NCBI GenBank assembly: GCA_016415585.1
Contig: CP066552.1
Location: 1,736,001-1,800,000, forward strand
Source: Pectobacterium carotovorum
GTDB lineage: Bacteria > Pseudomonadota > Gammaproteobacteria > Enterobacterales > Enterobacteriaceae
DNA: 64,000 bases
Direction of reading: 5' to 3'
Each line of letters begins with the position of its first letter. Position 1 is the stretch's first letter. Shown piece after piece: positions 4,099 through 17,623 of this stretch. The translations under genes and the position numbers were made by a program. The notes under the pieces are model-generated. The model was not told the origin of the DNA and did not search any database. It saw only the letters and a list, made by a program, of their open reading frames with translations.

Positions 4099-5610
4099 TT
4101 ACTTGGCGCCGGTGACAATATGTGTGGCGGCGTTAATCAGCGTGCGTTCACGCGGGTCGCGTAGTGCGTCTTTGACCTGTGCGCTTTCACCTTGAATTAC
4201 ACGCTCATGCAGCATTGGGATCGCGGCATCGCTGGCCAGGATCAGGTTTTCTGCCTGCATGATGGCCTGACGGCGTGCAACGCCCGCAGGAATCGCGGCC
4301 GCTTTTTGCAGCGCCTGATCGATCTCTGGGCGGCACAGCTGAGCGATATTGAACGACCCTTCACAGGCGAAGTCGCTGTACAGATAAGCCACAGGATCGC
4401 CGGAATCCAGTACGGTGGCGCGGGATAAAATAAAGGCATCAAACTTGCCTGCCAGCGCGTCGGACTCGATCTGTGCATACTCACGCACCACCTGTTTCAC
4501 CGTAAATCCAGCGGCGGTGAGCTGCTGTGCCAGATAGACTGCGACTTCAGGCAGTTCGGCGCGATCGCTGAACGTTGCCAGCGTGATGGTTGCACCCGCA
4601 GGCGTACCGGCTTTGACTGGGTTAGTTACCGGCTGACGCAGTTCCGCAGCCCACGGCAGCGCGGGACCTAACAGACCCTGCGCGATATCGGCACGTTTCT
4701 CATAGACGTTGTCCACCAGCTGCTGGCGATTGATCGCATCGCGCACGGCAGCACGCATGGCGGGATCTTGCATCACGCCATGGCGCGTATTCAGATACAG
4801 CGTATTGGTGCGTGGCATGGGGACTTCATGCACCAGCGATTGATCCAGCAGCGGTGCCTGAGAAACCGGAACGGCTTCGACAATGTCTGCCGTGCCGGTA
4901 CGTAATGCAGCAGCGCGCGCCGCGCCGTCGGACACAAAGCTGACATCGATACCGCTGGCCTGTGCTTTCTCACCCCAATAACCGTCGAATCGATCCAATA
5001 CCGCGCTGCTGGTGCCGGTGACGGTACGCAGAACGAACGGGCCGCTTCCGGTGCTGATCGGATTGACTATGCCATTTTTACCGTATGCCGTGGTGGAGAG
5101 AATCGCCAATTGCGGGCTGGATAAGCGCTGTGGCAGCAGTGGATCCGCTTTAGCGGTGGAGACAATGACGGCGTTATCGCCATCGGCTTTTACCGTTAAC
5201 TGCACGCCGTCCAGAATGCGCGGTTTGGGGGCAGCCGTGGACGCCACGGTGAGCGCATTCACTACGGTGGCGGCGTTTAAGGTGGTGTTATCGTGAAAAT
5301 GGACGTTTGGCCGCAGTTCAAAACGCCAGGATTTATCATCGATCTGCTGCCATTTTGTCGCCAGTGCAGGCTGGGCTTCGCCGAGTTTGTCGAGCACCAC
5401 CAGCGTTTCTGCCGTGCTCCAGCGCGACAGCTTAAAGGCATCATCACTCAGCGGCGTCAGGCCGGAGCGCGGAGGCTGAAGCATCGCCAGTTTGATTCGA
5501 CCGTCATGATGTGAGCTGTGGTTTTCCTCGGGCTCATTGAAGCAGCCTGAAAGCAGCAGCGTGGCTGATAGCAAGCCGGAAACGGGCCACAGGAAATTGC
5601 GCATATTCAT
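4099..5610 (-). CDS. Lipoprotein solute-binding protein, family 5 (peptide/nickel type)
   Basis: A periplasmic, membrane-anchored binding protein that should deliver substrate to the adjacent fused permease. The lipobox LLSGC puts the lipidated cysteine at about residue 23. Just after it is a His-containing segment (EENHSSHHDGR), which could bind a metal, though this is inference. The rest follows the family-5 pattern: the conserved STAETLVVLDKLGEAQPALA region, WRFELRPNVHFHDNTTL and the YLNTRHGVMQDPAMRAAVRDA region. Its 503 residues are normal for the family. I chose the start at 5610 because AAGGAC is correctly spaced before it. A longer start at 5628 would overlap the MFS stop. The two genes are probably translationally coupled. 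Confidence 0.85.
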   Translation of the reverse strand: MNMRNFLWPVSGLLSATLLLSGCFNEPEENHSSHHDGRIKLAMLQPPRSGLTPLSDDAFKLSRWSTAETLVVLDKLGEAQPALATKWQQIDDKSWRFELRPNVHFHDNTTLNAATVVNALTVASTAAPKPRILDGVQLTVKADGDNAVIVSTAKADPLLPQRLSSPQLAILSTTAYGKNGIVNPISTGSGPFVLRTVTGTSSAVLDRFDGYWGEKAQASGIDVSFVSDGAARAAALRTGTADIVEAVPVSQAPLLDQSLVHEVPMPRTNTLYLNTRHGVMQDPAMRAAVRDAINRQQLVDNVYEKRADIAQGLLGPALPWAAELRQPVTNPVKAGTPAGATITLATFSDRAELPEVAVYLAQQLTAAGFTVKQVVREYAQIESDALAGKFDAFILSRATVLDSGDPVAYLYSDFACEGSFNIAQLCRPEIDQALQKAAAIPAGVARRQAIMQAENLILASDAAIPMLHERVIQGESAQVKDALRDPRERTLINAATHIVTGAK

Positions 5611-5620
5611 CAGTCTGTCC

Positions 5621-6868
5621 TTATTCATTCACGGTTGAAGCGGATTTAAACGGGCGGCAGATGACCATCATGGCCAGCGAACTGCACAGCGGCACGGCGG
5701 CGAGCAGCACCCACGGAATGGCGGCCTGTGGCGACGGCGTTAGCGCGCGGTCGAGCTGGCCGCCGAGTATAAAGTTGCCGACCAGTACCGCGATGCCGCC
5801 CATCGACGCCAGTGCGCCATAGTGCGCGCCCAGATTTTTGTTGTTGGCAAAGCGTGGGATGAGGTCCATCCCGACGGGGACGATTAACATCTGCCCCAGC
5901 GTCAGCAGCGTAATTAATGAGATAGCCGGAAGCAGGCGCTGCCATCCGTCAGGCGGCGTGCTGGAAGCAAACAGCGCGACGCTAAAGAACGATGCAGCTA
6001 GCAGCGCAAAGCCCAGTGGCAGCATGCGCGCCGCGCCAACTCGGCGGGCAAAACGCGCCAGCGGGAGCTGTAACCCAATCACCAGCAGGGAAGCCAACAC
6101 AAACAGCGGGCCGAGATCTTTCTCGCTGCTGCCGGAGCGATGCAGTTCAACCGGCAGTGCCAGATAGAGCTGGTTGTAGCTGAACAGGTAAGCGCTGTAA
6201 GCAATGATGAACGCGACAAAGCGGCGCTGGCGGAACGTTTCCCACCACGGGGCAATCTGTAATTCGTTCTGATTGCGCTGCGTCGGCGGCAGGCTGAAAA
6301 ACAGGACGATGAGCGCGATAACAAACACGCCCGCGCCCGCAAGCGCCACGCGCTGGAATCCGTATCCGGCCAGCACTGAGCCGAGCAACGGCCCCAGCAC
6401 TGCGCCTAACTCGCCGCAAATGGCAAACAGAGCGAACCATTCAGAGCGGCTGCGTTTTCCCTCTTTTTCACTTTGCGTACCGGCCTGTGCCATCAGCGCT
6501 TCGATGGCGGGAGAGAACAGGGCACCGCCGACACCGGTCAGGCAGGCACCAAGGATGATCGGCCATAGCGAGTCGCCTAACGCCAGCAGGAGATAGCCGC
6601 TGATACGTACGACACAGCCACACAGGATGATCACGCGCGCGCCGAATCGGTCAGCCAGCGCGCCGCCGACTAAAAACATGCCCTGTTGAGAAAAGGTGCG
6701 TAAGCCAATCACCAGCCCGATAGCCCAGCCGGAAAGCAGCATGTCGTCGCGAAGGAAAATCGCCAGAAACGGTACGACGGCATAAAAGCCAATATTGAAA
6801 ACAAGCTGGCTACCCAGAAGCAACGGGGGATAAGGCCGTGGTGCGCGGTTGGCGGTAAGGTCTGACAT
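5621..6868 (-). CDS. MFS exporter within the ABC import operon
   Basis: A 415-residue, 12-helix major facilitator protein. The first cytoplasmic loop carries the MFS signature (GGALADRFGAR) and the helix-5 region has the antiporter-like motif GELGAVLGPLLGSVLAG, so drug/metabolite efflux is the more likely direction. It is sandwiched between the ATPase genes and the binding-protein gene. An exporter embedded in a peptide/nickel-type importer operon is the layout of opine-metallophore (staphylopine/pseudopaline-type) systems, where the exporter releases the chelator and the ABC system recovers the metal complex. No nicotianamine-synthase-like or opine dehydrogenase gene is visible here, so that role is a hypothesis. 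Confidence 0.8.
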   Translation of the reverse strand: MSDLTANRAPRPYPPLLLGSQLVFNIGFYAVVPFLAIFLRDDMLLSGWAIGLVIGLRTFSQQGMFLVGGALADRFGARVIILCGCVVRISGYLLLALGDSLWPIILGACLTGVGGALFSPAIEALMAQAGTQSEKEGKRSRSEWFALFAICGELGAVLGPLLGSVLAGYGFQRVALAGAGVFVIALIVLFFSLPPTQRNQNELQIAPWWETFRQRRFVAFIIAYSAYLFSYNQLYLALPVELHRSGSSEKDLGPLFVLASLLVIGLQLPLARFARRVGAARMLPLGFALLAASFFSVALFASSTPPDGWQRLLPAISLITLLTLGQMLIVPVGMDLIPRFANNKNLGAHYGALASMGGIAVLVGNFILGGQLDRALTPSPQAAIPWVLLAAVPLCSSLAMMVICRPFKSASTVNE

Positions 6869-6952
6869 GTCATGATCCGTTATAAAAAGCCCGTTACGGG
6901 GGAATGTGTTATTGATGCGATATTTTATTGTAAAAAGCGCGTTTTCAGCGAG

Positions 6953-7789
6953 CTAATAGCCTGACGTCGATAGCGTGGGGACGGCCTGCAACAGATGAGC
7001 GGTGTGCGCCTGCTGCGGTGAAGCCAGCACCTCTGTCGTGGGGCGATCTTCAATAATGCGTCCGCCGTCCATGACCAGCATTCTGTCGCACAGCCCGGCG
7101 AGCATGGATATATCGTGCGAGACCATCAGCAAGCCCATTTTGTTTTGTTCGGTGACCTGCTGAAGCAGGTTTTTAATTTGTTCACGCAGCGGTAAATCCA
7201 GACCGCTGACAGGCTCGTCTGCCAGTAAAAATTCGGGTCGAACAATCAGCGCTCGCGCCAGCGTGACACGCTGTGCCTGTCCCCCGGAAAGCTGCCCGGC
7301 GACCTTATTCAGAAGCGTGACGCTCAGTCCTACCTGATCCATGACTTCGCCCAAGCGGGCAGAATGGTTTCCATTAGCGTGACGGTTTTCATCGGGACGG
7401 AGTCGCTTCAGCGGCTCGGTGAGGAGATCGGCGACGCGCTGACGTGGCGCGAACGAGCCTGCCGGATCCTGCGGAATGTACTGAACGCGTCGGCGATACC
7501 AGAGCAGTGAACGTACCGAACCGGGTTTAATCAGGTTGCCGTCGCAGTACACCGCACCACTTTCTGGCGCTTCGAGTGCGAGCAGGGTTTTTAGCAGCGT
7601 GGATTTACCACAGCCGGAGGCACCGACCAGCCCGACGCGTTCGTGCTGTTGCAGGTTCAGCGACAGGTCGTGAAAAATGGCACTGGCAGGATCGGCCTTT
7701 TGCCACGGCAAACGTGACGTCTGGCGATAGCGGCTGACGTGCTCAAGGCTTAAAAACGGTGAGGGAACCGCATGCAGGTGGTGGTTCAT
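6953..7789 (-). CDS. ABC importer ATPase (DppF/NikE-like)
   Basis: A cytoplasmic ATP-binding subunit of 278 residues. Visible motifs in order are Walker A GLVGASGCGKSTLLKTL (about residue 55), the Q-loop YIPQDPAGSF, the signature QLSGGQAQRVTLARAL (about residue 167), Walker B EFLLADEPVSGLD and the switch histidine in LLMVSHDISM. The family usually pairs a D-type and an F-type ATPase, and this is the second one. Its start codon overlaps the stop of the preceding ATPase gene by 4 bases (ATGA), indicating translational coupling. The next gene, for the MFS exporter, follows after about 84 bases. Confidence 0.9.
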   Translation of the reverse strand: MNHHLHAVPSPFLSLEHVSRYRQTSRLPWQKADPASAIFHDLSLNLQQHERVGLVGASGCGKSTLLKTLLALEAPESGAVYCDGNLIKPGSVRSLLWYRRRVQYIPQDPAGSFAPRQRVADLLTEPLKRLRPDENRHANGNHSARLGEVMDQVGLSVTLLNKVAGQLSGGQAQRVTLARALIVRPEFLLADEPVSGLDLPLREQIKNLLQQVTEQNKMGLLMVSHDISMLAGLCDRMLVMDGGRIIEDRPTTEVLASPQQAHTAHLLQAVPTLSTSGY

Positions 7790-8625
7790 CCGGCAAGCGC
7801 TCCGGCAACAGCGGTGGGTAACACCGTGTCAGGAAAAAGATTGTCAGATAAAAGCGTGTCAGCGCGACGTGCGGCAGCGACCAGACTGCGGGTATACGGC
7901 TGCTGTGGTGCATTCAGTAGTTGCTGCATACTGCCGGATTCAATGACTCGCCCGTTTTCCATCACCAGGCCACGCTGGCAGAGTTGGGCGGCAACGGCGA
8001 TATCATGCGTAATAAACAGCAGGGCGGGAGCATCCGGCTGTGCGCTACGTTCCTGTAAGACCTGCAATACCTGCTTCTGGGTAATGACATCGAGCGCGGT
8101 TGTCGGTTCGTCCGCCACCAGCAGGCGTGTCTTGCCGAGTAGGGCGAGGGTAATACAAATGCGCTGGCGCTGGCCGCCGGACAGTTCGGCAGGATAGCGT
8201 TGCAGGAGGTTGGGAATATCATCCAGCTTCATGGCAGCCAGCAGTGCAGAAAGCTCAATGGAAGAAGGGGTTTTCAACGCCAGAGACAGCTGTTTTCCCA
8301 ACGGCATGAGGGGATTAAGCGCCGTTGCGGAGTCCTGGAACACGGCAGAGACGCGGCTGGCCTGCGGGCGCGCCAGCGCTTTCAACTGGCTGACCGCTTC
8401 GCCATTCACCCGAATACTGCCGCTAATCTGGCAGCCTGACGGCGGTGTGCCGATGACAGCTTTGGCGGTGAGGGATTTACCGGAACCGGATGCACCGAGT
8501 AAACAGACACGTTCACCCGCGAACAGCGTAAAGCTGATATCGCTGACCTTGGTTGCACCACCAATAGACAGGCTCAGGTTCTCTACCTGAAGAATGGCGT
8601 CTGTATGTCTGTTCCAGTTAATCAT
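7786..8625 (-). CDS. ABC importer ATPase (DppD/NikD-like), first gene of operon
   Basis: A cytoplasmic ATP-binding subunit of 279 residues. It has Walker A LLGASGSGKSLTAKAV (about residue 40), a Q-loop region AVFQDSATALNPLMP, signature ELSGGQRQRICITLAL, Walker B LLVADEPTTALD and LLFITHDIAVAAQ with the switch histidine. It heads a five-gene minus-strand operon: ATPase, ATPase, MFS, binding protein, fused permease. A Zur-box-like operator lies 31 to 47 bases upstream of its start, overlapping the expected promoter. The protein lacks the long C-terminal oligopeptide signature extension common in OppD, which is more like nickel/metallophore-type ATPases. Confidence 0.88.
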   Translation of the reverse strand: MINWNRHTDAILQVENLSLSIGGATKVSDISFTLFAGERVCLLGASGSGKSLTAKAVIGTPPSGCQISGSIRVNGEAVSQLKALARPQASRVSAVFQDSATALNPLMPLGKQLSLALKTPSSIELSALLAAMKLDDIPNLLQRYPAELSGGQRQRICITLALLGKTRLLVADEPTTALDVITQKQVLQVLQERSAQPDAPALLFITHDIAVAAQLCQRGLVMENGRVIESGSMQQLLNAPQQPYTRSLVAAARRADTLLSDNLFPDTVLPTAVAGALAG

Positions 8626-8655
8626 GGCTAACGTATAGGGTTAGTGTAAATCGAT

Positions 8656-8672
8656 ATGTAATAACATAACAA
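8656..8672 (-). promoter_or_regulatory. Zur-box-like operator
   Basis: Read on the minus strand the site is TTGTTATGTTATTACAT. It matches 13 of 17 positions of the enterobacterial Zur core ATGTTATAATATAACAT, keeping TGTTAT on one side and ACAT on the other. It lies 31 bases upstream of the first ATPase gene, where a repressor site would block transcription. The comparison was done by eye from a remembered consensus. Chance matches are possible in AT-rich DNA. Confidence 0.5.
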
Positions 8673-8810
8673 ATTACAACTACGTGATGCAAAGGAAATG
8701 TGATCCAGAGCGTATAAATTGGCGCCGCGACGCAGCCTTAGCTGACCGCGTCGATGATGAAAAAGAGGGGGAAGGATAAATCGTAGGAAAGCGTGATGTA
8801 TCTTTAGAGC

Positions 8811-9233
8811 CTACTCATTCGATGAATCAACAAGCTGTGCCAGTTCCGCCGCGCTCAACTGAGTAATCTGACAAACCTGAGCAGGTTCCATGCCGCTAAG
8901 TAGAAGCTGACGAGCGATATTTCGAGCACTGGCTTTCATACCTTGCTCTATGCCATGTTGTATTCCCTGCTCCATGCCGCGCTGTATCCCCTGCTGTATG
9001 CCTTTTTCAAACCCGATTTTCTCAAGCTGCTGTGCGATGGTCATGATCGCCTCCCGATCCGTTGACAGAGACTGCGCGACGGCCTCAATAAACTCTGCTG
9101 GCCTTGAGGTGTTGCCGCTTCGTGCGATGTAAAACAGTATCGCTCTTTTTTGCGGCAGCGGTACCTGCCAGCGCTCAAATAATAGCCCGATATCCTGTGC
9201 TAATTCCAGTATATCGAGCTGTATGGCTACCTC
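8811..9233 (-). pseudogene. Rpn/YhgA-type nuclease family remnant, 5' truncated
   Basis: The open frame reads from a stop at 9234-9236 without a credible start and gives about 140 residues. It contains the family's segment WQVPLPQKRAILFYIARSG, an internal ATG at 9044 and the hallmark C-terminal GI-rich run (GIQQGIQRGMEQGIQHGIEQ) before a final helix. Rpn proteins are recombination-promoting nucleases of the PD-(D/E)XK fold. Their catalytic core lies in the N-terminal part, which is missing here. A short product from 9044 (77 residues) could be made internally, as reported for other Rpn loci, but it has no nuclease core. I read it as a decayed gene. Confidence 0.7.
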
Positions 9234-9635
9234 TTAGCCACATTCCCATGAAGATTCAGAGGTCGTTTCGTGCGCTGCACTGCCGCTACTCATTTGTGAT
9301 ATCGAACACGCGCCCGACTCAGGGCGCTCAATTGCCGTCGCCCTGAGAACCCTGGCTTCCGGCTAAATTATGCCGCTGCGCGGTGCCATCGATGGACATG
9401 ACCGCTAGTCGAGCCGCCAGTGACGCGATTACTCGCCCCATAAATGGACCTCGCCCTTTGGGCCAGCACAAGTGCTGTTCAAAAACGTCGTTGACGTTTT
9501 TGTCCGACGCGGCACTGACTTTCGCGGCGTCCATGCCGCTCACTCGGCGGCCACGTCCACCGCTGCATAATTTTTTAAGCCGGATATAACCCACTGCAGG
9601 TTGAGGCATTTGTGTAAGAGGCAGAGAACAGATAG
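9234..9635 (-). other. Non-coding stretch with possible gene relic
   Basis: About 400 bases without a convincing gene. A 93-codon minus frame (9328-9609) has no recognisable domain and no clear ribosome-binding site. The segment contains a striking self-complementary patch around 9480-9505 (AAAAACGTC near GACGTTTTT). It could be the remains of the Rpn gene or of an inserted repeat family. Confidence 0.3.
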
Positions 9636-9664
9636 ACGCGATCTCACTGGGAGCGAGATCGCGT
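9636..9664 (-). terminator. Hairpin after the arylsulfotransferase gene
   Basis: A perfect 10-bp inverted repeat (ACGCGATCTC/GAGATCGCGT) with a 9-base loop, 13 bases beyond the stop at 9678. The minus-strand downstream side is only moderately T-rich (TCTATCTGT), so it may be a weak terminator or an mRNA 3' end stabiliser. Confidence 0.6.
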
Positions 9665-9677
9665 TAAGGTGTGAGGG

Positions 9678-11471
9678 TTAGCTCTGTTGCGTGGTCAGCC
9701 ACTGGCGCAGGCGTTCGGGCTGTTGGGCGCCGCTCAGACGTGCTTGTTCTTCACCGTTTTCGAGCCAGAGCAGAGTTGGCAGCGTTCTCACCGCCAATTT
9801 CTCCGCTAGGGCAATGTGATGATCGGCGTCCAGATAATGACTTGGTAATTGACGGTATTCCTCGTTATCCAGAATCACTTCTAACTGGCGATAGAGGCTT
9901 TTGCAGTGGACGCAGCGCTCCGCGCCGACCAGCAGCAACTGCGGGCCACGTTGCGCTGCCAGTTCAGGCCAACGGTCGGCGGTGAGTGGCGCAAAACGCT
10001 CACGGTTGACGGCAAAGAGCTTCGGACTGCGCTTGAGGTCTTCGCTGTCGGTCGCGACACACAGGGCATCGCCGCTCTTTTTATAAGGGCGCGTACCGTC
10101 AATACGAATCACGCTGGCGAAGCCGGGCGCGGCGGCTCCGGGCTGGCGTAGTTGAGTATTATCAGGGGCAATCACCGGAGTTTCCTGTGGGCGCGACAGC
10201 TGCGGCACCCATTCATAGGGGACGCGGTAGGCGCGGTACAGCATATTGGTGTTCACCGTCTTGCCCCAATAGGGGGAAATAAACTCCCAGACAATTTCAT
10301 GATCGGCGGTGACTTCAAACAACCGACCATTGGCCCCTTCGTTAATCAGCGTATTGCCGTTCGGCAGGCGCTGGATGTTACTGATGTACGGGCTGTAAAA
10401 ACGGAAGGCGTCAGTCGGGTGCGGAATGCCCGCTTCGTAGGGCGAATAGCGCCAGACAATATCCAGCGTGACTGGGTTGATTTCCAGCACGCGGGAATAG
10501 TCACGCCAGGCGTTTTTTACCCCGTCAGCCGATGCCGGGTTGGGCGCGCCGTAGCCAGCCCAGCCGCCGTTATCAAACACCAGAATATTGCCCGCGCCCG
10601 GTAAGCCTGCGGGGATCATATGCGCGTGGTGCTGGCCGATAATCCAGCCGATATGTTTGAGCTCAGGCGTGTTGTAGTTGGGGCCAAGCTGCCAGACGAT
10701 ATTACCGCTCTGCTTGTCGATGATGGCAATGATGTTGGATTCGCGCGCGTCCCAGATGATGTTATCTGGGTGGAAACGGGTATCGCCTTGATCGAACCAC
10801 GGATTGGGACCGAGTGCCGACATGGAGTTGATGTGCATCCAGTCGCCCATCCCACCGCCGCTTTTGCGCAGGTTGGGATTGTTGTACAGCGCGGTTTTTG
10901 CGTCGTCATCAAAGCCCAGTTCATCGAAATGGTCGCTGCAACGCCATTCCCACAAAATGTTGCCCTCCCAGTCCACTTCGATGATGGTGTCGTCGAGCAG
11001 CAGTTTGTCGCTGATCCGTTCATTATGCAGGTTGGTATGCGCCAGCAATAATGTGTTGCCGCCAATCGACTGCGGTTCCTGACCCGGCGCGTAATAGCCG
11101 ACCGGATTGCCGCTGCGCTGGTAGTCATGGTGGACGCGTGCCATCCATTCTGGCGGAAGGTCAGGATCGGTAATGTATTCATAGCCGTTGAATTTCCAGA
11201 CGACGTTACCGTCCCAGTCGACCTGAATCAGATCGACCATGTCCTGCATGCCGTAGCGTGAATCACGTTCGCCGCTGTGCCCGAGGATGTAGCCGCCGGG
11301 CAGGATTTTGTTGGGGAAGCCGTGCAGGCCTTCCCACAGGCGCAGTTCGGTGCCGTTCATATCCACTAGCACCGCGCCACGTTCCAGCGCCTGAAAGACG
11401 GTGTAGCCGCCCCAGGCTTTTTCCGGGTTGTAAATCGTTGTGCTGGTCGGGTAGACGGAAGGGTGTCCCAT
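9678..11471 (-). CDS. Arylsulfotransferase-like protein fused to a thioredoxin domain
   Basis: A 597-residue protein. Residues about 20-420 form an arylsulfotransferase-type beta-propeller with repeated W-rich blades (VDWDGNVVWKFNGYEY, VDWEGNILWEWRCSDHFDE, INPVTLDIVWRYSPYEAG). They include the active-site-like histidine stretch GQHHAHMIPAG followed by GNILVFDNGG. Residues about 490-597 form a thioredoxin-like domain with CVHC (Cys520, Cys523) and a cis-proline motif TLPTL. No signal peptide is visible, unlike periplasmic AssT, so a cytoplasmic location is inferred. The ABC ATPase gene ends just upstream on the same strand, placing this protein in a sulfate-ester or sulfonate uptake unit. Plausible role: moving or removing sulfate from imported aryl sulfates, with the thioredoxin domain supplying redox chemistry. 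The reaction is not proven by sequence. Confidence 0.8.
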   Translation of the reverse strand: MGHPSVYPTSTTIYNPEKAWGGYTVFQALERGAVLVDMNGTELRLWEGLHGFPNKILPGGYILGHSGERDSRYGMQDMVDLIQVDWDGNVVWKFNGYEYITDPDLPPEWMARVHHDYQRSGNPVGYYAPGQEPQSIGGNTLLLAHTNLHNERISDKLLLDDTIIEVDWEGNILWEWRCSDHFDELGFDDDAKTALYNNPNLRKSGGGMGDWMHINSMSALGPNPWFDQGDTRFHPDNIIWDARESNIIAIIDKQSGNIVWQLGPNYNTPELKHIGWIIGQHHAHMIPAGLPGAGNILVFDNGGWAGYGAPNPASADGVKNAWRDYSRVLEINPVTLDIVWRYSPYEAGIPHPTDAFRFYSPYISNIQRLPNGNTLINEGANGRLFEVTADHEIVWEFISPYWGKTVNTNMLYRAYRVPYEWVPQLSRPQETPVIAPDNTQLRQPGAAAPGFASVIRIDGTRPYKKSGDALCVATDSEDLKRSPKLFAVNRERFAPLTADRWPELAAQRGPQLLLVGAERCVHCKSLYRQLEVILDNEEYRQLPSHYLDADHHIALAEKLAVRTLPTLLWLENGEEQARLSGAQQPERLRQWLTTQQS

Positions 11472-11487: not shown

Positions 11488-12297
11488 TTACGTGTTCAGA
11501 GAAGAGAGGTCGGCAGCCGTGTCGGCAGGCTGCGTCAACAGTGCGAGCAGGTCGCTGCACTGCTGGTGAAAGGCCTGACTGTCACGCTGGCGCGGATGCG
11601 GCAGCGAAATGGTCGCAATCTGGCGGATACGGCCCGGTCGCGGTGCCAGCACGACGACGCGATCGGCGAGATAGACGGCTTCCTCGACGTCGTGCGTGAC
11701 CAGCAGCGTGGTCGTGCCTTCCGCCTGATGAATGCGGCGCAGCTCCTGCTGCATCTGCTGGCGGGTCAACGCATCCAGCGCGCCAAAAGGTTCATCCAGC
11801 ATCAGGATGCGTGGATTGGCGACGAGTCCGCGAGCGATAGCCACACGCTGCGCCATGCCGCCGGAAAGCTGGGCGGGTAGGGCATCGGCAAAATCCTGCA
11901 AATGGACGAGTTGAATAAAGTGGTCGATCAGGCGCTTCTGCTCTTTGTTATCGATGGCTTCATTCGCCAGTCCAAGTGCGATGTTTTGCCGCACCGTCAG
12001 CCACGGAAACAGGCGTGGTTCCTGAAACACCATGCCACGCTCACGCCCGATGCCGCGCACGGTTTTCCCTTCGACCAGCACGCGTCCCTGATAGTCGTTG
12101 TCCAGCCCAACCAACATGCGCAGCAGCGTGGATTTGCCGCAACCGCTGCTGCCGACAATCGCCACCAGCTCACCGCTGTGAATCGACAGTGAAAAATCAT
12201 CGATTACCGTCAACGACTCGCCCTGTACACGAAACTGTTTACGCAGCCGATCGAACTGTACGACTGGCGGTGATACCTCAAGGGTTGTGGACGTCAT
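11488..12297 (-). CDS. ABC ATPase, sulfonate/taurine/sulfate-ester type
   Basis: A 269-residue cytoplasmic ATPase of the SsuB/TauB/AtsC group. It shows Walker A IVGSSGCGKSTLLRML, a Q-loop MVFQEPRLFPWLTV, signature QLSGGMAQRVAIARGL, Walker B ILMLDEPFGALDALTR and the switch histidine in LLVTHDVEEAVYLADRV. The QEPRLFPW and GALDALTR motifs are characteristic of the nitrate/sulfonate/taurine family. Its start overlaps the stop of the fused permease gene by 4 bases (ATGA). It is followed after 16 bases by the arylsulfotransferase-thioredoxin gene, so all three are likely cotranscribed. Confidence 0.88.
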   Translation of the reverse strand: MTSTTLEVSPPVVQFDRLRKQFRVQGESLTVIDDFSLSIHSGELVAIVGSSGCGKSTLLRMLVGLDNDYQGRVLVEGKTVRGIGRERGMVFQEPRLFPWLTVRQNIALGLANEAIDNKEQKRLIDHFIQLVHLQDFADALPAQLSGGMAQRVAIARGLVANPRILMLDEPFGALDALTRQQMQQELRRIHQAEGTTTLLVTHDVEEAVYLADRVVVLAPRPGRIRQIATISLPHPRQRDSQAFHQQCSDLLALLTQPADTAADLSSLNT

Positions 12298-13907
12298 GCG
12301 ATTTCTCCTGCGGAACGCCAGCGCGTCATCCGCTGTTCCAGACCTAATCCGACGCGGTCGAGCACCGCGCCCGTTAATCCAATCAACAGTATGCCGCTGA
12401 TAATCAGGGGCATATCCAGTAGCTGTTGGGCGTTGATCATCAGGCTGCCGATCCCGGTGCCGGATGACATGAAATATTCAGCACCGATGGTGCCAAGCCA
12501 GGCGTAAATCAGCGACAGACGTAAACCGGCGAAGATCGCGGGCGCGGCCCCTGGCAGGATCAGCACCCGCAAGCGAGTTGATAAACGCAGTTGCAACACC
12601 TGTGCAACTTCCTGTAAAGCCTGTGAGCGCTGGCGGATACCGCGATGGCTGGCCACCAGCATGGGGAAGAACGAGGCCAGCGCGACAAACGTGATTTTCC
12701 CGGTTTCATCGTTGCCGACCCAGGCGGTCAGCAGCGGCAGCCAGGCAAACAGCGCGATCTGACGCAGCGTCGCGACCGTAGGCGTGAAGAGCGCGTCGCT
12801 GGTGGCATTCAGCCCCAGCAGCACGCCGCACACGAGGCCCGCGACAATCCCGCATACCGCACCGGCGAGCGCGCGGGTCAGACTGGCCTGCATCGCCTCG
12901 GTGAGCGAGCCGTCACGCACGCCTTGCAACAGCATGTGCCACACGTCGGCGGGCGGTGGCAGCAGTAGCGGATCGATCCAGCCGAAACGGCTGGCCTGTT
13001 GCCAGAGCAGCAGAAGCAGAAAAGGCAAAACCAACGCCGATAAGCGACGAGACGGTGCGGCGGTTAAGCGGCTGAGCGGCGGATGTGGCCAGAAAACCAG
13101 ACGGCGTTCCAGTTGATTGATTGCCCACTCCATCGTCAGCCCTGCCAGCCCAATGACGGCGATACAGACAAACACAATATCCAACTGAAACAGCTGGCGT
13201 CCCCATACCAGCAGGTAGCCAATGCCCTGCGATGATGCCAGCAGTTCGACCACGATCAGCGACACCCACGCCTGCGAGAGCGCCAGCCGTAAGCCGGTTA
13301 ACCAAGTGGGTAGCGCGGCGGGCAGCGTCAATTTGATGAGGCGCTGATACCACGGCAGGCGCAGAGTGCGAGCGACTTCCTGTAGTGCATGCGGCACGTT
13401 ACGCACGCCTGTTTGCGTATGCAGTGTCACGGGGATAATCACGGCCTTGATGATGACGGCGAGCTTCAGGCCGTCATCGATGCCGAACAGCACCATAAAC
13501 AGCGGTATCCAACCCAGCGTTGGAATTTGTGCCAGCGCGTAGACCGTCGGGTGCAGCAGGTGTTCGGCACGGCGTGAGGCTCCCATCAGCGCACCAAGTA
13601 GCGTCCCCGCCAGTACGCCAGCCAGCAGGCCGCTAGCTAGCCGTTGCAGGCTGATAAAGAGCTGCGGCAGGAGATCGTTGTGCCAAAGTTCGACGGCGGT
13701 TTTAGCGACGATGTCGGGAGCCGGGAGAATCTGGGAAGGCATCCAGCCGTAATGGGTGCTGATATACCACAACGCCAGCAGCGCCAGCGGCACAATTAGT
13801 GGTACTACAAGCGGCACCCCTATTGACACGACAAGAGAATAGACCCGCGCTACCGGCAGTGCAGGCCAGACGATCGCGTTTTTTTTCAGCAGTATCGACT
13901 TATTCAT
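12294..13907 (-). CDS. Fused double permease of a sulfonate/sulfate-ester ABC importer
   Basis: A 537-residue inner-membrane protein made of two SsuC/TauC-like permease halves. The first half carries the contact loop ALQEVARTLRLPWYQRLIKLTLPAALPTWLTGLRLAL in pieces near residue 170. The second half repeats the same pattern (ALQEVAQVLQLRL, then ILPGAAPAIFAGLRLSL) near residue 430. The two copies of the EAA loop show a true internal duplication. AtsB of the Pseudomonas sulfate-ester transporter AtsRBC has the same double size, which supports an ester-sulfate substrate. I place the start at 13907 (GGGAATAAA before ATG); a longer frame reaches 14012. It is divergent from the binding-protein gene at 14146. 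Confidence 0.85.
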   Translation of the reverse strand: MNKSILLKKNAIVWPALPVARVYSLVVSIGVPLVVPLIVPLALLALWYISTHYGWMPSQILPAPDIVAKTAVELWHNDLLPQLFISLQRLASGLLAGVLAGTLLGALMGASRRAEHLLHPTVYALAQIPTLGWIPLFMVLFGIDDGLKLAVIIKAVIIPVTLHTQTGVRNVPHALQEVARTLRLPWYQRLIKLTLPAALPTWLTGLRLALSQAWVSLIVVELLASSQGIGYLLVWGRQLFQLDIVFVCIAVIGLAGLTMEWAINQLERRLVFWPHPPLSRLTAAPSRRLSALVLPFLLLLLWQQASRFGWIDPLLLPPPADVWHMLLQGVRDGSLTEAMQASLTRALAGAVCGIVAGLVCGVLLGLNATSDALFTPTVATLRQIALFAWLPLLTAWVGNDETGKITFVALASFFPMLVASHRGIRQRSQALQEVAQVLQLRLSTRLRVLILPGAAPAIFAGLRLSLIYAWLGTIGAEYFMSSGTGIGSLMINAQQLLDMPLIISGILLIGLTGAVLDRVGLGLEQRMTRWRSAGEIA

Positions 13908-14145
13908 TTTATTCCCGAAAACCATCGCAGCTGGATGAATAGGGAATAAAAAACAGGTTTCAAGGTTGAACGCCAATGCAATAAAGCGATGGTCGTCGTG
14001 CAATAAATGCATACGCGTAGCCCAAGCCCGCCAGCCCTGATTTATGCTTTTTTCCGCTGAACAAACCTGTAAATGTTATTTAAGACTGACGCCGACGGTT
14101 CGCTAGTTTCATGGTAGATGAAACGAATTATTAAGGAAAAACCGT

Positions 14146-15282
14146 ATGCAGCACGCCACCCTGTTGATGACCGCCTCGCCGATAACGGCATCTTCCCGCT
14201 GGCGCTGGGGGATGAAGGTATTAAGTACGGCCTTGCTGATGGGCGCCGCGCTCGTTTCCACCGTTCAGGCAAACGACGCTGCCCCGCAGGAGGCACAGAA
14301 GCCGACGGAGATTCGTATTGGTTTGCCGGATCAGAGTGCAGGCAGCAAACCCTTTATTCGCGGGCCGCTGGGGTTGGCGCATATTCGCCAACAGTTGGAG
14401 AAGGAATTTGAGCCGCAGGGTATCAACATTCGCTGGTCGTTCTTTAAAGGAGCGGGCCCAGCGGTGAATGAGGCGCTGGCAAACAAGCAGCTGGATGTGG
14501 TGTATCTGGGCGATCTGGCGGCTATTATCGGCCGTGCGGGTAGTCTGCCAACGCGGGTGCTGGTGGGGTCGCGCGGCTCGAATTCTTATCTGGCGGCGAC
14601 GCCGGAATCGGGTATTCAACGCATTGAAGATTTACGCGGCAAGCGGATTGCGGTCTACAAGGGAACGGCCGATCAGCTGTCGTTTGAGCGCGCGATTAAA
14701 AGCGTCGGGCTAAACGAGCGCGATGTGCGAGTCATTAATCTGGACTGGACGGCAGGCAAGGCCGCACTGGCGGCCAGACGCGTGGATGCGGTGTGGGGCG
14801 GCGTCTCTCTGCTGGCGTTGCGTAAGCAGGGCATCAATATTGTGACCACCAGCCGGGCGCTGGGCTGGCCGAATACCACGCAGGCCGCGGTGTTGGCGAC
14901 GCAGGACTTTATCGACCGCTACCCGGGCACGACGCAGCAACTGGTGAATGTGCTGGTGGACAATGCGCAGTGGATCGGCGATGCACAGCACCTGCCGGAA
15001 TACACTGCGCTCATGGCCGAGCAGAGTCAGATTCCGCAGACGATTTTTCAGGAAGAATTGAAAGCGGAGGATCTCCCTTTCCAAAGCTCGCCGCGTCTCG
15101 ATCCGTTCCTGCTCAGCAGCTTGCAGGACAGCATTGAGCGGGCGAAAGCCGCCGGGTTGATTCGCAGCACGTTCTCGGCCAGCGACTGGTTTGCCGGCCA
15201 GTTTGTTGACCGGGCGCTGAAAGCCAAAGGGCTGGAATCGAACTGGGCAGTGTATGACGCCAGCGGTAATCCTGCGAAATAA
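14146..15282 (+). CDS. Periplasmic substrate-binding protein, sulfonate/sulfate-ester type
   Basis: A 378-residue secreted binding protein of the SsuA/AtsR group. The N-terminus has a signal peptide with an unusually long n-region (hydrophobic core VLSTALLMGAALVSTVQA, cleavage expected near residue 43). The mature part starts with EIRIGLPDQSAGSKP. It then has the typical FFKGAGPAVNEALANKQLDVVYLGDLAAI segment, which lines the ligand cleft, and GKRIAVYKGTADQLSFERAI. AAGGAAAAACC precedes the ATG. It is divergent from the fused permease and its ATPase and arylsulfotransferase, sharing a 238-bp control region, and convergent with the LysR gene 12 bases downstream. Confidence 0.87.
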   Translation: MQHATLLMTASPITASSRWRWGMKVLSTALLMGAALVSTVQANDAAPQEAQKPTEIRIGLPDQSAGSKPFIRGPLGLAHIRQQLEKEFEPQGINIRWSFFKGAGPAVNEALANKQLDVVYLGDLAAIIGRAGSLPTRVLVGSRGSNSYLAATPESGIQRIEDLRGKRIAVYKGTADQLSFERAIKSVGLNERDVRVINLDWTAGKAALAARRVDAVWGGVSLLALRKQGINIVTTSRALGWPNTTQAAVLATQDFIDRYPGTTQQLVNVLVDNAQWIGDAQHLPEYTALMAEQSQIPQTIFQEELKAEDLPFQSSPRLDPFLLSSLQDSIERAKAAGLIRSTFSASDWFAGQFVDRALKAKGLESNWAVYDASGNPAK

Positions 15283-15294
15283 TCACGAATGCGC

Positions 15295-16233
15295 TCACAG
15301 GGTCGGTAGTGCCGGAGCCGGTGAGCGCAGCCTGTCCTGTGCCAATATGCTTTCGATCATCAGCTCGGCCAGCGGTGGTAGCGTTCTCTGCAAACAGGTG
15401 ACAATACCGAAGCGGGTTTGCATATTTGCCCATTCCGGCGGCGTGCCTGTCAGTGGAATTTCTACCAGTTGATGACTTAATCGACCCAGCGCAAAGCCAT
15501 CCTCGCTGGCAAAGCTGATGGCCTGCGTATGCCGCAGGATGCTGAAAACAGAATAGATATGGTCACACTGAATCTGTGGCCGATAATCGGGCTGGCGCGT
15601 TAAGGCGGCCAGTACCTTGCGCATGCCGACGGGCATAAAAGGGGAGGCGAGCGGAAAGCGCAGGAGATCGTCCGGCGTGACGTTTGCCTGCTGTACCAGC
15701 GGGTGTGAAGAGTGGCAGATAAAAAAGCAGCGCTGCTGGCTTAATGGCTGGACATGAAGGTTGGTTTCCATTTCGGCCTGCCAGGTATCGGCAACGATAA
15801 AAGGCCACTCATCGGCTAGCAGTCGTTCACGCAGGGATTGCCAGTTATCCACGCTGTAGGTGACTCTGGCTCGCGGACGAAGGGCGTGGAAATGCGCTAC
15901 CGCCTTGGGGATCAGCGTGGTAGACGGTGCCGGGCCGCAGCCAAACGTCAGTTCGCCTTCCTGTGCCTCGCTGATCTGCCGCATGTCGGTCATCAGTTCC
16001 CAGGACAGCTCCTGCATACGCTGTGCAAACGGCAGCAGCGTATTGCCCTGCCACGTCAGCGCAAAGCGGCGGCTCTGGCGATCGATAAGCGGATGCCCCA
16101 TCGTTTGTTCCAGCGCCTGAATGCTGCGGCTGAATGCCGATTGCGACAGGCAGACGGCCTCAGCGGCCTGTACAAAACTCCCATGTTCGGCCAGCGCAAG
16201 AAAATTGCGTAATTGCCGTAAATCCAGATGCAT
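15295..16233 (-). CDS. LysR-family regulator of the sulfur-ester cluster
   Basis: A 312-residue DNA-binding activator. The N-terminal winged helix-turn-helix is clear (LRQLRNFLALAEHGSFVQAA then LSQSAFSRSIQALEQ), followed by an effector-binding domain (GELTFGCGPAPSTTLIPKA onward). It lies convergent to the binding-protein gene and is the only regulator in the cluster, so control of this uptake system is the likely role. The effector is unknown. I prefer the start at 16233 (MHLDLRQLRNF), which matches typical LysR N-termini, although an ATG at 16266 is possible. Confidence 0.82.
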   Translation of the reverse strand: MHLDLRQLRNFLALAEHGSFVQAAEAVCLSQSAFSRSIQALEQTMGHPLIDRQSRRFALTWQGNTLLPFAQRMQELSWELMTDMRQISEAQEGELTFGCGPAPSTTLIPKAVAHFHALRPRARVTYSVDNWQSLRERLLADEWPFIVADTWQAEMETNLHVQPLSQQRCFFICHSSHPLVQQANVTPDDLLRFPLASPFMPVGMRKVLAALTRQPDYRPQIQCDHIYSVFSILRHTQAISFASEDGFALGRLSHQLVEIPLTGTPPEWANMQTRFGIVTCLQRTLPPLAELMIESILAQDRLRSPAPALPTL

Positions 16234-16378
16234 ATTGCGGCTACCTACCGTATCGATTTTTCCCACTTTTTAGGCGGAGGTCGGCTGGCAACGCAATGAA
16301 CAAAACGTTATAAGTTATAGCGAATTGATTACGATGGGACCTCAGCGCACGGCGAGCGCCGCCTGGCGCGGTCAGCGG

Positions 16379-16885: not shown

Positions 16886-17623
16886 TTATAACGGTTCAGG
16901 TTTGATGAGCTGTAATTCCACGCCGAGTCTGATGGCGTGTTTAGCATTCAGGACACCGAGTTTTTTTACCACATTACCGATATGGAATTTCACTGTACTG
17001 ATTTTGATATCCAGAATCAGCGCAATTTCTGGGTAGGTTTTTCCCATACTTGCCCAGTAGAGAATTTCATTTTCACGCTGGGAGAAAATTTCTTTATCGC
17101 CTTGTTTTTTGCTCTGAGAGCTTTGCGTCATCTCTTTGTAAAGTGTAGTGATTTTCTCATGAATGGTAATGAGCAGCATTTGCAGTTTGTCTTTGTTTTC
17201 CTCAACAATATTTTCCATATCTGTTGGCGTATTTTCTTCAAACATAATAGATAACGCCGCCAGATTATTATTGTTGTCATGCAAGACAAAGGTATAACCA
17301 TTAACAATATCGTACTCTTTTGACAGATTAAAAATCCTGGAGAGCTTTAGCTTAGAGTTAATAACGATTTTGTCCTCCCACGAGAACGGCGAGACTTTAT
17401 TTATTGCCATCAAAATAACCGGGTCGATATGCTGATAGTTATTTTCTTTATAGGTATTAATCCATTCTTTCGGGTAATTTGAGATGATCACAACCTGAGA
17501 CGGATTTTTTTTGTTCATGATCATGTAAGCGTATTTCAGGTCGCCATACTGCTTTAATTTTCGGCCAAGATAGCTTTTTATCGTGTTATTGATAATTTCA
17601 TTATCAGAGAAAAATACAGACAT
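16886..17623 (-). CDS. virR: LuxR-type quorum-sensing regulator, VirR/ExpR2-like
   Basis: A 245-residue acyl-homoserine-lactone receptor and DNA-binding regulator. The N-terminal autoinducer domain keeps the ligand-pocket residues W54, Y58, D67 and W82 (in KEWINTYKENNYQHIDPV and SPFSWED). The C-terminal helix-turn-helix is FSQRENEILYWASMGKTYPE followed by IALILDIKISTVKFHIGNVV. The C-terminal third is nearly the same as Pectobacterium ExpR, but the N-terminal half differs. No luxI/expI gene is adjacent, whereas expR normally overlaps expI, so this is the second, solo receptor of the VirR/ExpR2 type. Such proteins repress plant-cell-wall-degrading enzymes until the signal accumulates. Gene symbol is by resemblance. 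Confidence 0.8.
   Translation of the reverse strand: MSVFFSDNEIINNTIKSYLGRKLKQYGDLKYAYMIMNKKNPSQVVIISNYPKEWINTYKENNYQHIDPVILMAINKVSPFSWEDKIVINSKLKLSRIFNLSKEYDIVNGYTFVLHDNNNNLAALSIMFEENTPTDMENIVEENKDKLQMLLITIHEKITTLYKEMTQSSQSKKQGDKEIFSQRENEILYWASMGKTYPEIALILDIKISTVKFHIGNVVKKLGVLNAKHAIRLGVELQLIKPEPL

Follow-up and report, generated by a model that had tools for sequence, protein, structure and literature searches.

The protein encoded at positions 9678-11471 of the minus strand joins an arylsulfotransferase (ASST)-type beta-propeller to a genuine thioredoxin domain. It also carries a conserved tail cysteine, Cys471, which had no place in the original prediction for this DNA. Taken together, the conserved cysteine and the protein's own reducing domain suggest that sulfur would be released half-reduced, as sulfite; the wider family points the same way, with the thioredoxin as the probable electron donor to Cys471 and sulfite as the probable product. 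We consider it, on balance, somewhat probable that the protein acts in the cytoplasm as a thiol-dependent reductase that desulfurylates organosulfates (probably aryl sulfates). Whether it represents a new enzyme class, a dithiol-dependent organosulfate reductase in which the sulfuryl group would pass from a histidine to the tail cysteine and leave as sulfite with the help of either a thioredoxin, in cis or as a separate protein, or a chain of lipoyl and glutaredoxin proteins, we judge to be evenly balanced. All coordinates refer to the window, that is, the whole analysed stretch of 64,000 nucleotides of Pectobacterium carotovorum (CP066552.1, positions 1,736,001-1,800,000, assembly GCA_016415585.1).

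The fusion protein and its active site

The original prediction had described an arylsulfotransferase with a C-terminal thioredoxin domain, and had named as evidence against itself a C-terminal part that fails to model as a thioredoxin fold. This part does model as a thioredoxin fold, and it has in addition a PF00085 match, the CxxC motif (Cys520-Val-His-Cys523) and the conserved proline. The protein exceeds curated Pfam cut-offs (79.9 against 24.2 and 57.8 against 27 bits; PF05935/PF14269), and it belongs to the PAPS-independent arylsulfotransferase superfamily by profile, by active site and by the AssT propeller fold. In the fold search, the propeller part matched E. coli AssT (3elq) and Cpz4 (9kf4, 9kf6), while the sequence search of solved structures gave, among the matches listed, only thioredoxin-type chains or weak Cpz4 matches. 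PF01507 (PAPS_reduct) is not among the Pfam families matched at an E value of 0.001, and PADLOC gave no match that would indicate a defence role of the locus. The features are compiled in Table 1.

Table 1. Features of the fusion gene and its neighbours in the window.
Feature	Position	Strand	Evidence or remark
ASST-thioredoxin fusion protein, 597 aa	9678..11471	-	ORF, Pfam, fold match of predicted model
Beta-propeller, arylsulfotransferase fold, about residues 8-424	10200..11450	-	
Thioredoxin domain, residues 490-597	9681..10004	-	
Redox motif Cys520-Val-His-Cys523	9903..9914	-	CxxC in 37/37 fused loci (window included) and 31/31 fused proteins
His115, equivalent of AssT His252	11127..11129	-	alignment with periplasmic AssT homologues; invariant, 37/37
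His213-Ile-Asn215, equivalents of AssT His356/Asn358	10827..10835	-	alignment with periplasmic AssT homologues; invariant, 37/37
Arg243, equivalent of AssT Arg374	10743..10745	-	alignment with periplasmic AssT homologues; invariant, 37/37
His281, equivalent of sulfuryl-accepting AssT His436	10629..10631	-	alignment with periplasmic AssT homologues; invariant, 37/37
Cys471 in floppy tail/linker (residues 465-481, pLDDT <50)	10059..10061	-	
ABC importer ATPase	11488..12297	-	PF00005; SaoA/TauB/SsuB-like, below cut-offs; 16 bp upstream of fusion gene
ABC permease, two BPD_transp_1 domains in one ORF	12294..14012	-	PF00528, two stretches; 4-bp overlap with ATPase gene
Periplasmic binding protein, SsuA-like, divergent	14146..15282	+	PF09084; TIGR01728 131.2 bits against cut-off 163.5
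LysR-type regulator	15295..16266	-	Pfam

For the active site, the fusion protein was aligned with 18 more distant ASSTs, periplasmic class I homologues among them. According to the accessible part of a review (PMC13426309), His436 of E. coli AssT accepts the sulfuryl group and is surrounded by His252, His356, Asn358, Arg374 and Thr501. The E. coli numbering was transferred through this source and residue spacing, the aligned sequences being those of class I homologues rather than of the E. coli enzyme itself. Five residues were mapped (H281, H115, H213, N215 and R243), Thr501 lying outside the mapping; the set of 37 close homologues (A1) consists of the window protein and 36 of its best 120 homologues.

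The protein has only four cysteines, at positions 178, 471, 520 and 523, and the two-cysteine disulfide loop of class I enzymes is missing from it in the alignment with periplasmic AssT homologues. On this point the original prediction does not stand: it had implied that the redox domain serves the disulfide that AssT proteins need, and with no cysteine loop there is no such disulfide for a thioredoxin to make or tend, so that this reading is rejected. The tail around the cysteine is of low confidence in both predicted models, as would fit a mobile arm. At the N-terminus, alignment and a simple hydrophobicity scan, used in place of a signal-peptide program, found neither an extension nor a hydrophobic stretch. 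This agrees with the predicted lack of a signal peptide, from which we infer that the protein is probably cytoplasmic.

A cysteine after the propeller in fused and stand-alone forms

The best 120 homologues comprise 31 fused proteins, the other 89 being stand-alone proteins of about 480 aa; the named stand-alone ones are mainly from Bacillota, many of them sulfate reducers, with 66-70% identity. The genome scan gave 472 relatives, of which 80 were retained and, together with the window, form a set of 81 loci (37 fused, 43 stand-alone and one frameshifted, L037). A cysteine follows the propeller in 80 of these 81 loci, that is, in all intact ones, and in 120/120 of the best proteins. In stand-alone forms, 5-34 residues separate it from the C-terminus, and most often it is the sole cysteine of the tail, exactly one being present in 80 of the 89 stand-alone proteins.

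The nearest outgroup, collected with a Calothrix protein (L111) as query, consists of exported relatives. The tail cysteine is present in 119/119 ingroup proteins against 2/115 of the outgroup, and a hydrophobic N-terminus in 2/119 against 97/115, the scan having dropped one of 120 ingroup and five of 120 outgroup rows (set A3 drew on 54 of 240 proteins). Two further samples agree with this division. Among 395 genomes of the phylum of L051, all 21 full-length matches (at least 830 bits) have the tail cysteine; of the 11 lower matches two had no locus, and the nine readable ones have the CV motif in 0/9, some tail cysteine in 2/9 and an N-terminus that is clearly hydrophobic (at least 2.6) in 7/9 and weakly so (1.5 and 1.6) in 2/9. 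Four of the 21 ingroup ORFs reach hydrophobicity peaks of 1.5-2.3, all of them in unresolved upstream start extensions. The Moorella phylum gave matches in 23 of 398 genomes, from which 20 regions were read; the tail cysteine, with varying flanking residues, is present in 22/22 copies there (21 stand-alone, one fused). These samples overlap the first set by 2/21 and 5/22 copies, so that the 43 copies represent 36 new ones and 7 repeats; region L213 holds the same protein as the first-set locus L044.

On the propeller tree, which was built by a quick method, has weak basal forks and excludes L037, the fused and stand-alone states require two changes. Most simply, the fusion would be early and the thioredoxin domain would have been lost twice, while the cysteine was retained. 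Four delta-type loci (L172, L173, L175 and L176) pair a cytoplasmic copy that has the cysteine with an exported-looking copy that lacks it. The same loci also contain a DASS-type transporter and an exported protein, porin-like by eye, for whose L171 copy there was no Pfam match.

There is no sign of selenocysteine at the tail position: among the matches listed in the two phylum searches, full-length ingroup matches end in TAG or TAA only, and the sole TGA (G289) belongs to an exported-type relative whose match stops before the tail.

The importer

The original prediction had placed the protein with a sulfate-ester-type ABC importer and had proposed a cytoplasmic route for such esters. The association is conserved among the fused forms: 36 of the 38 fused loci, with the window and L037 counted, have an Ssu/Sao-like permease or binding protein gene at a distance of no more than six genes; a LysR gene lies within six genes in 31 of 37. 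The imported compound would be a sulfate ester, judging from this conserved neighbourhood and the SsuA-like binding protein. Given the fusion, the absence of a signal peptide and the conserved importer, a cytoplasmic route for sulfate esters, the putative substrate, is likely.

The importer has Pfam domains of the Ssu/Tau/Ats type, yet every NCBIfam equivalog score lies below its cut-off. SAO (SaoA/SaoP) is the selenocysteine-assisted organometallic system named in the accessible part of PMC13188914. For the ATPase, SaoA is one of the closest NCBIfam names (232.6 bits against a cut-off of 360), and for the permease SaoP is the closest (263.9 against 295).

Redox partner genes

The presence of redox genes within 6 kb was scored with a detector for glutaredoxin-like, GcvH, Lpd, thioredoxin reductase and thioredoxin genes, which was built from the first-set stand-alone loci. 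Of the 38 later regions, 21 have a redox gene, compared with 0/11 exported-ASST regions (Fisher p = 0.0011) and 1/20 random windows (Fisher p = 0.00014), with kinship ignored in both comparisons; the 20 random windows come from 11 of the carrier genomes, and the control regions are few, three being shorter than the rest. In the first-set stand-alone loci, the frequency is 15/43 by the 6-kb window against 12/43 by gene-rank clusters. There is no redox gene within 6 kb in 17/38 later regions and in 28/43 first-set stand-alone loci, most Paenibacillus included. Fused loci rarely have a redox neighbour (none in 35 of 37), as is expected if the fusion itself supplies the redox domain; L037 was counted as fused here and in the importer counts, and its own split domain is one of the two exceptions.

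In locus L227, the ASST gene is accompanied by a gene for a thioredoxin of 111 aa and one for a thioredoxin reductase of 407 aa (350.0 bits against a cut-off of 343.45) that carries its own thioredoxin domain. L228 has the ASST, a thioredoxin and a 407-aa ORF that corresponds to that of L227 by profile and cluster, the thioredoxin reductase scan having covered the L227 ORF; in both loci the thioredoxin gene begins 17-21 bp after the ASST gene. In Cetobacterium somerae (L112) and in L221, the fused gene is immediately preceded by a thioredoxin reductase-like gene, at 11 bp in L221, with scores of 342.9 and 331.0 bits, respectively, just under the same cut-off.

In sulfate reducers and their kin, genes for a glutaredoxin-like protein, dihydrolipoamide dehydrogenase and a lipoyl protein of the GcvH type lie nearby, at times together with LipA/LipB. 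The glutaredoxin-like protein has CxRC in 16/16 cases and scores with PF00462 at 26.8 bits in L165 and, under the cut-off of 22.9, at 20.6 bits in L046. A lipoyl-based electron chain formed by the CxRC protein, GcvH and dihydrolipoamide dehydrogenase is possible; the GcvH/Lpd/LipA genes could instead serve glycine or lipoate metabolism. Proteins of about 270-300 aa in L046, L052, L072, L165 and L171 have an N-terminal CxRC and a C-terminal half that is faintly radical SAM-like (E 0.02), and the CxRC protein is often beside the GcvH-type lipoyl protein and dihydrolipoamide dehydrogenase.

The fate of the sulfur in carrier genomes

If the product were sulfate, carriers unable to activate sulfate would gain no sulfur. 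Among 32 carrier genomes, some of them incomplete, PF01507 was found in 22, Sat in 18 and PF01077 in 30. Three lack both PF01507 and Sat, namely Merdenecus (MAG L029), which also lacks PF01077, and two Cetobacterium MAGs. The carriers tested from Enterobacterales, Pasteurellaceae and Paenibacillaceae have PF01507, and many have Sat, so that genomics does not decide between sulfite and sulfate in these groups.

In Cetobacterium, 12 genomes contain the full protein in six cases and Sat in none (0/12). The six carriers have PF01077 in 6/6; PF01507 is absent from four, and two have one ORF of 554-555 aa. One carrier, G249, has two AsrC ORFs (474.7 and 391.3 bits, cut-off 324.1), and G250 has one ORF that opens like the second of these. 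Moorella sulfitireducens has two copies of the protein, DsrAB and one PF01507 match in a 602-aa frame, and the genome search gave no Sat match. PF01507 is absent from 11 of a set of 16 genomes, several of them from sulfate reducers, in which its absence is uninformative because these organisms use Sat. Clostridium tyrobutyricum was set aside as a case without sulfate activation, having CysD and an adjacent ORF that is CysN-like by eye.

The strongest single case for a sulfite product is locus L225, whose genome gave no PF01507 match. There, the genes for an importer ATPase, permease and binding protein and for the ASST are followed, in one run, by an O-acetylhomoserine sulfhydrylase-like gene (TIGR01326, 418.7 bits, under the cut-off of 495.1), a sulfite/nitrite reductase, TusA, a thioredoxin, ThiS, ThiF and JAB. 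The reductase of 290 aa matches PF01077 (103.2 bits) and PF03460 (74.4 bits), and scores 170.6 with AsrC (cut-off 324.1); a role in nitrite reduction is possible. An ASST inside such a sulfite-to-homocysteine gene set would fit a sulfite product. The set is similar to the Wolinella route to methionine by way of a protein thiocarboxylate, a route named in the title of a reference cited in the accessible part of PMC5764234.

Proposed mechanism and alternative explanations

In the mechanism that we propose, the ABC importer would carry a sulfate ester into the cell, as its conserved neighbourhood and SsuA-like binding protein suggest. The propeller would transfer the sulfuryl group to His281 and free the phenol, which the conserved AssT active site makes plausible. 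A thiol, for which Cys471 of the mobile tail is the likeliest candidate, would then take over the group. The resulting enzyme-Cys-S-SO3(-) would be attacked by C520/C523 of the fused thioredoxin, with release of sulfite. The thioredoxin disulfide would be re-reduced by the cellular thioredoxin reductase; in unfused relatives, a separate thioredoxin or a chain of glutaredoxin-like protein, lipoyl protein and dihydrolipoamide dehydrogenase may be the donor. The sulfite would enter sulfite reductase directly, bypassing ATP sulfurylase, APS kinase and PAPS reductase.

The protein might instead be an ordinary cytoplasmic arylsulfotransferase or sulfatase that passes the sulfuryl group to an alcohol or water, so that the sulfur ends as sulfate for the cys pathway, with the thioredoxin and Cys471 as a redox switch or a protection from oxidation. 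We regard this as unlikely, although the active site is the same as that of AssT, ping-pong transfer to an acceptor is known chemistry (accessible part of PMC13426309), and PF01507 genes occur in the tested carriers from Pectobacterium, Brenneria, Raoultella and Enterobacter. It accords poorly with Cetobacterium, whose carriers lack Sat, and four of six also PF01507, yet keep PF01077 in 6/6, and with the reductase gene within the L225 run; moreover, the lone tail cysteine of 80/89 stand-alone proteins is ill-suited to a disulfide switch within the tail.

Less probable still is the same relay of histidine, cysteine and thioredoxin acting on another sulfur donor (a sulfonate, sulfamate or thiosulfonate) and releasing sulfite. 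Sulfonate monooxygenases require oxygen, so anaerobes would need another route to sulfonate sulfur, and the importer is nearest to Ssu/Tau/Sao-type families, yet under their cut-offs. Against this, the aligned ASST active-site residues are retained, and attack by histidine on a sulfur that must expel a carbon leaving group would be chemically hard. A thioredoxin domain that serves only structure or docking, with no redox role in catalysis, seems to us very improbable: although it is dispensable in cis, given the two changes on the tree, which are most simply two losses, its CxxC is retained in 37/37 fused loci and 31/31 fused proteins, and genes for thioredoxin or other dithiol proteins are often nearby where the cis domain is missing.

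Comparison with known systems and significance

Periplasmic AssT/AstA (PF05935; E. coli 3elq) differs from the fusion protein, which has neither signal peptide nor disulfide loop and adds the tail cysteine, the thioredoxin domain and an ABC importer in its operon. Cpz4 (9kf4, 9kf6), a 463-residue chain titled a caprazamycin-synthesis sulfotransferase, was compared by overall fold and matches the propeller part alone.

The proposed working is most like that of plant-type APR, or CysH with thioredoxin: a sulfuryl-binding domain, a catalytic cysteine and a C-terminal thioredoxin-like domain. The catalytic cysteine of plant-type APS reductase sits on a mobile segment. APS reductase forms a thiosulfonate-enzyme intermediate, from which thioredoxin or, in the plant enzyme, the C-terminal domain sets sulfite free (accessible part of PMC6827007). 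Unlike APR, the window protein has no PF01507, has a different fold, and would act on an organic sulfate ester without ATP. The likeness is thus one of working, not of membership, and would be convergent.

In Pseudomonas putida, Kahnert et al. (2002) reportedly described AstA/AtsRBC/SftR, in which an ASST, an Ssu-like ABC importer and a LysR regulator serve the use of sulfate-ester sulfur. The likeness would lie in these three components, and the Pseudomonas system is not known to include a thioredoxin fusion. Among the literature matches listed, from which subscription papers were largely excluded, no title or abstract opening deals with a reductive ASST or with one fused to thioredoxin, and no paper was found that pairs an arylsulfotransferase with Pectobacterium; the accessible part of the 2026 review PMC13426309 contains 'thioredoxin' and 'cytoplasm' zero times. 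If the proposal is true, the stratagem of APS reductase, which pairs a catalytic cysteine with a thioredoxin of the enzyme's own, evolved twice, on folds that are unrelated.

Sulfate esters make up a large share of soil organic sulfur, and in the known routes they are hydrolysed to sulfate, which is re-activated with ATP before reduction, or the sulfate is passed to another phenol. Direct conversion of aryl sulfates to sulfite would spare the ATP cost of sulfate activation and would give plant-associated, gut and soil bacteria an ATP-free entry to sulfite for their sulfur supply. Organisms without sulfate activation could then use aryl sulfates, and sulfate and sulfite reducers could gain an organic electron acceptor, possibly allowing respiration on organosulfates.

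Other observations on the locus and its relatives

The Kluyvera copy (positions 9001-10787 of L037) has a frameshift that splits the propeller from the tail. A contig labelled Serratia marcescens (L010) has a copy that groups among Pectobacterium in the tree, probably through contamination or a wrong label. Three stand-alone proteins without a thioredoxin domain (P0028, P0041 and P0115) are publicly named 'thioredoxin', perhaps a name carried over from fused forms.

Most Enterobacterales loci encode the permease in one ORF of about 510-570 aa, in which the window copy has two permease domains; the permeases of Bacillota and Pasteurellaceae relatives are of about 250-310 aa. In the window, nothing but short ORFs separates the ASST gene from the following ABC genes (about 8625-9670); several related Pectobacterium loci (compare L040 and L008) have there an ORF of about 237-357 aa, by eye an Rpn-type mobile-element nuclease, of which the short ORFs are likely a relic. 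Adjoining the sulfur locus, at 4099-8625, are a NikA/peptide-type binding protein, an MFS transporter and two NikD/NikE-like ATPases, a group that travels with the locus in several Pectobacterium and Brenneria loci. Near the LysR gene, at 16886-17623, lies a LuxR-type autoinducer-binding regulator.
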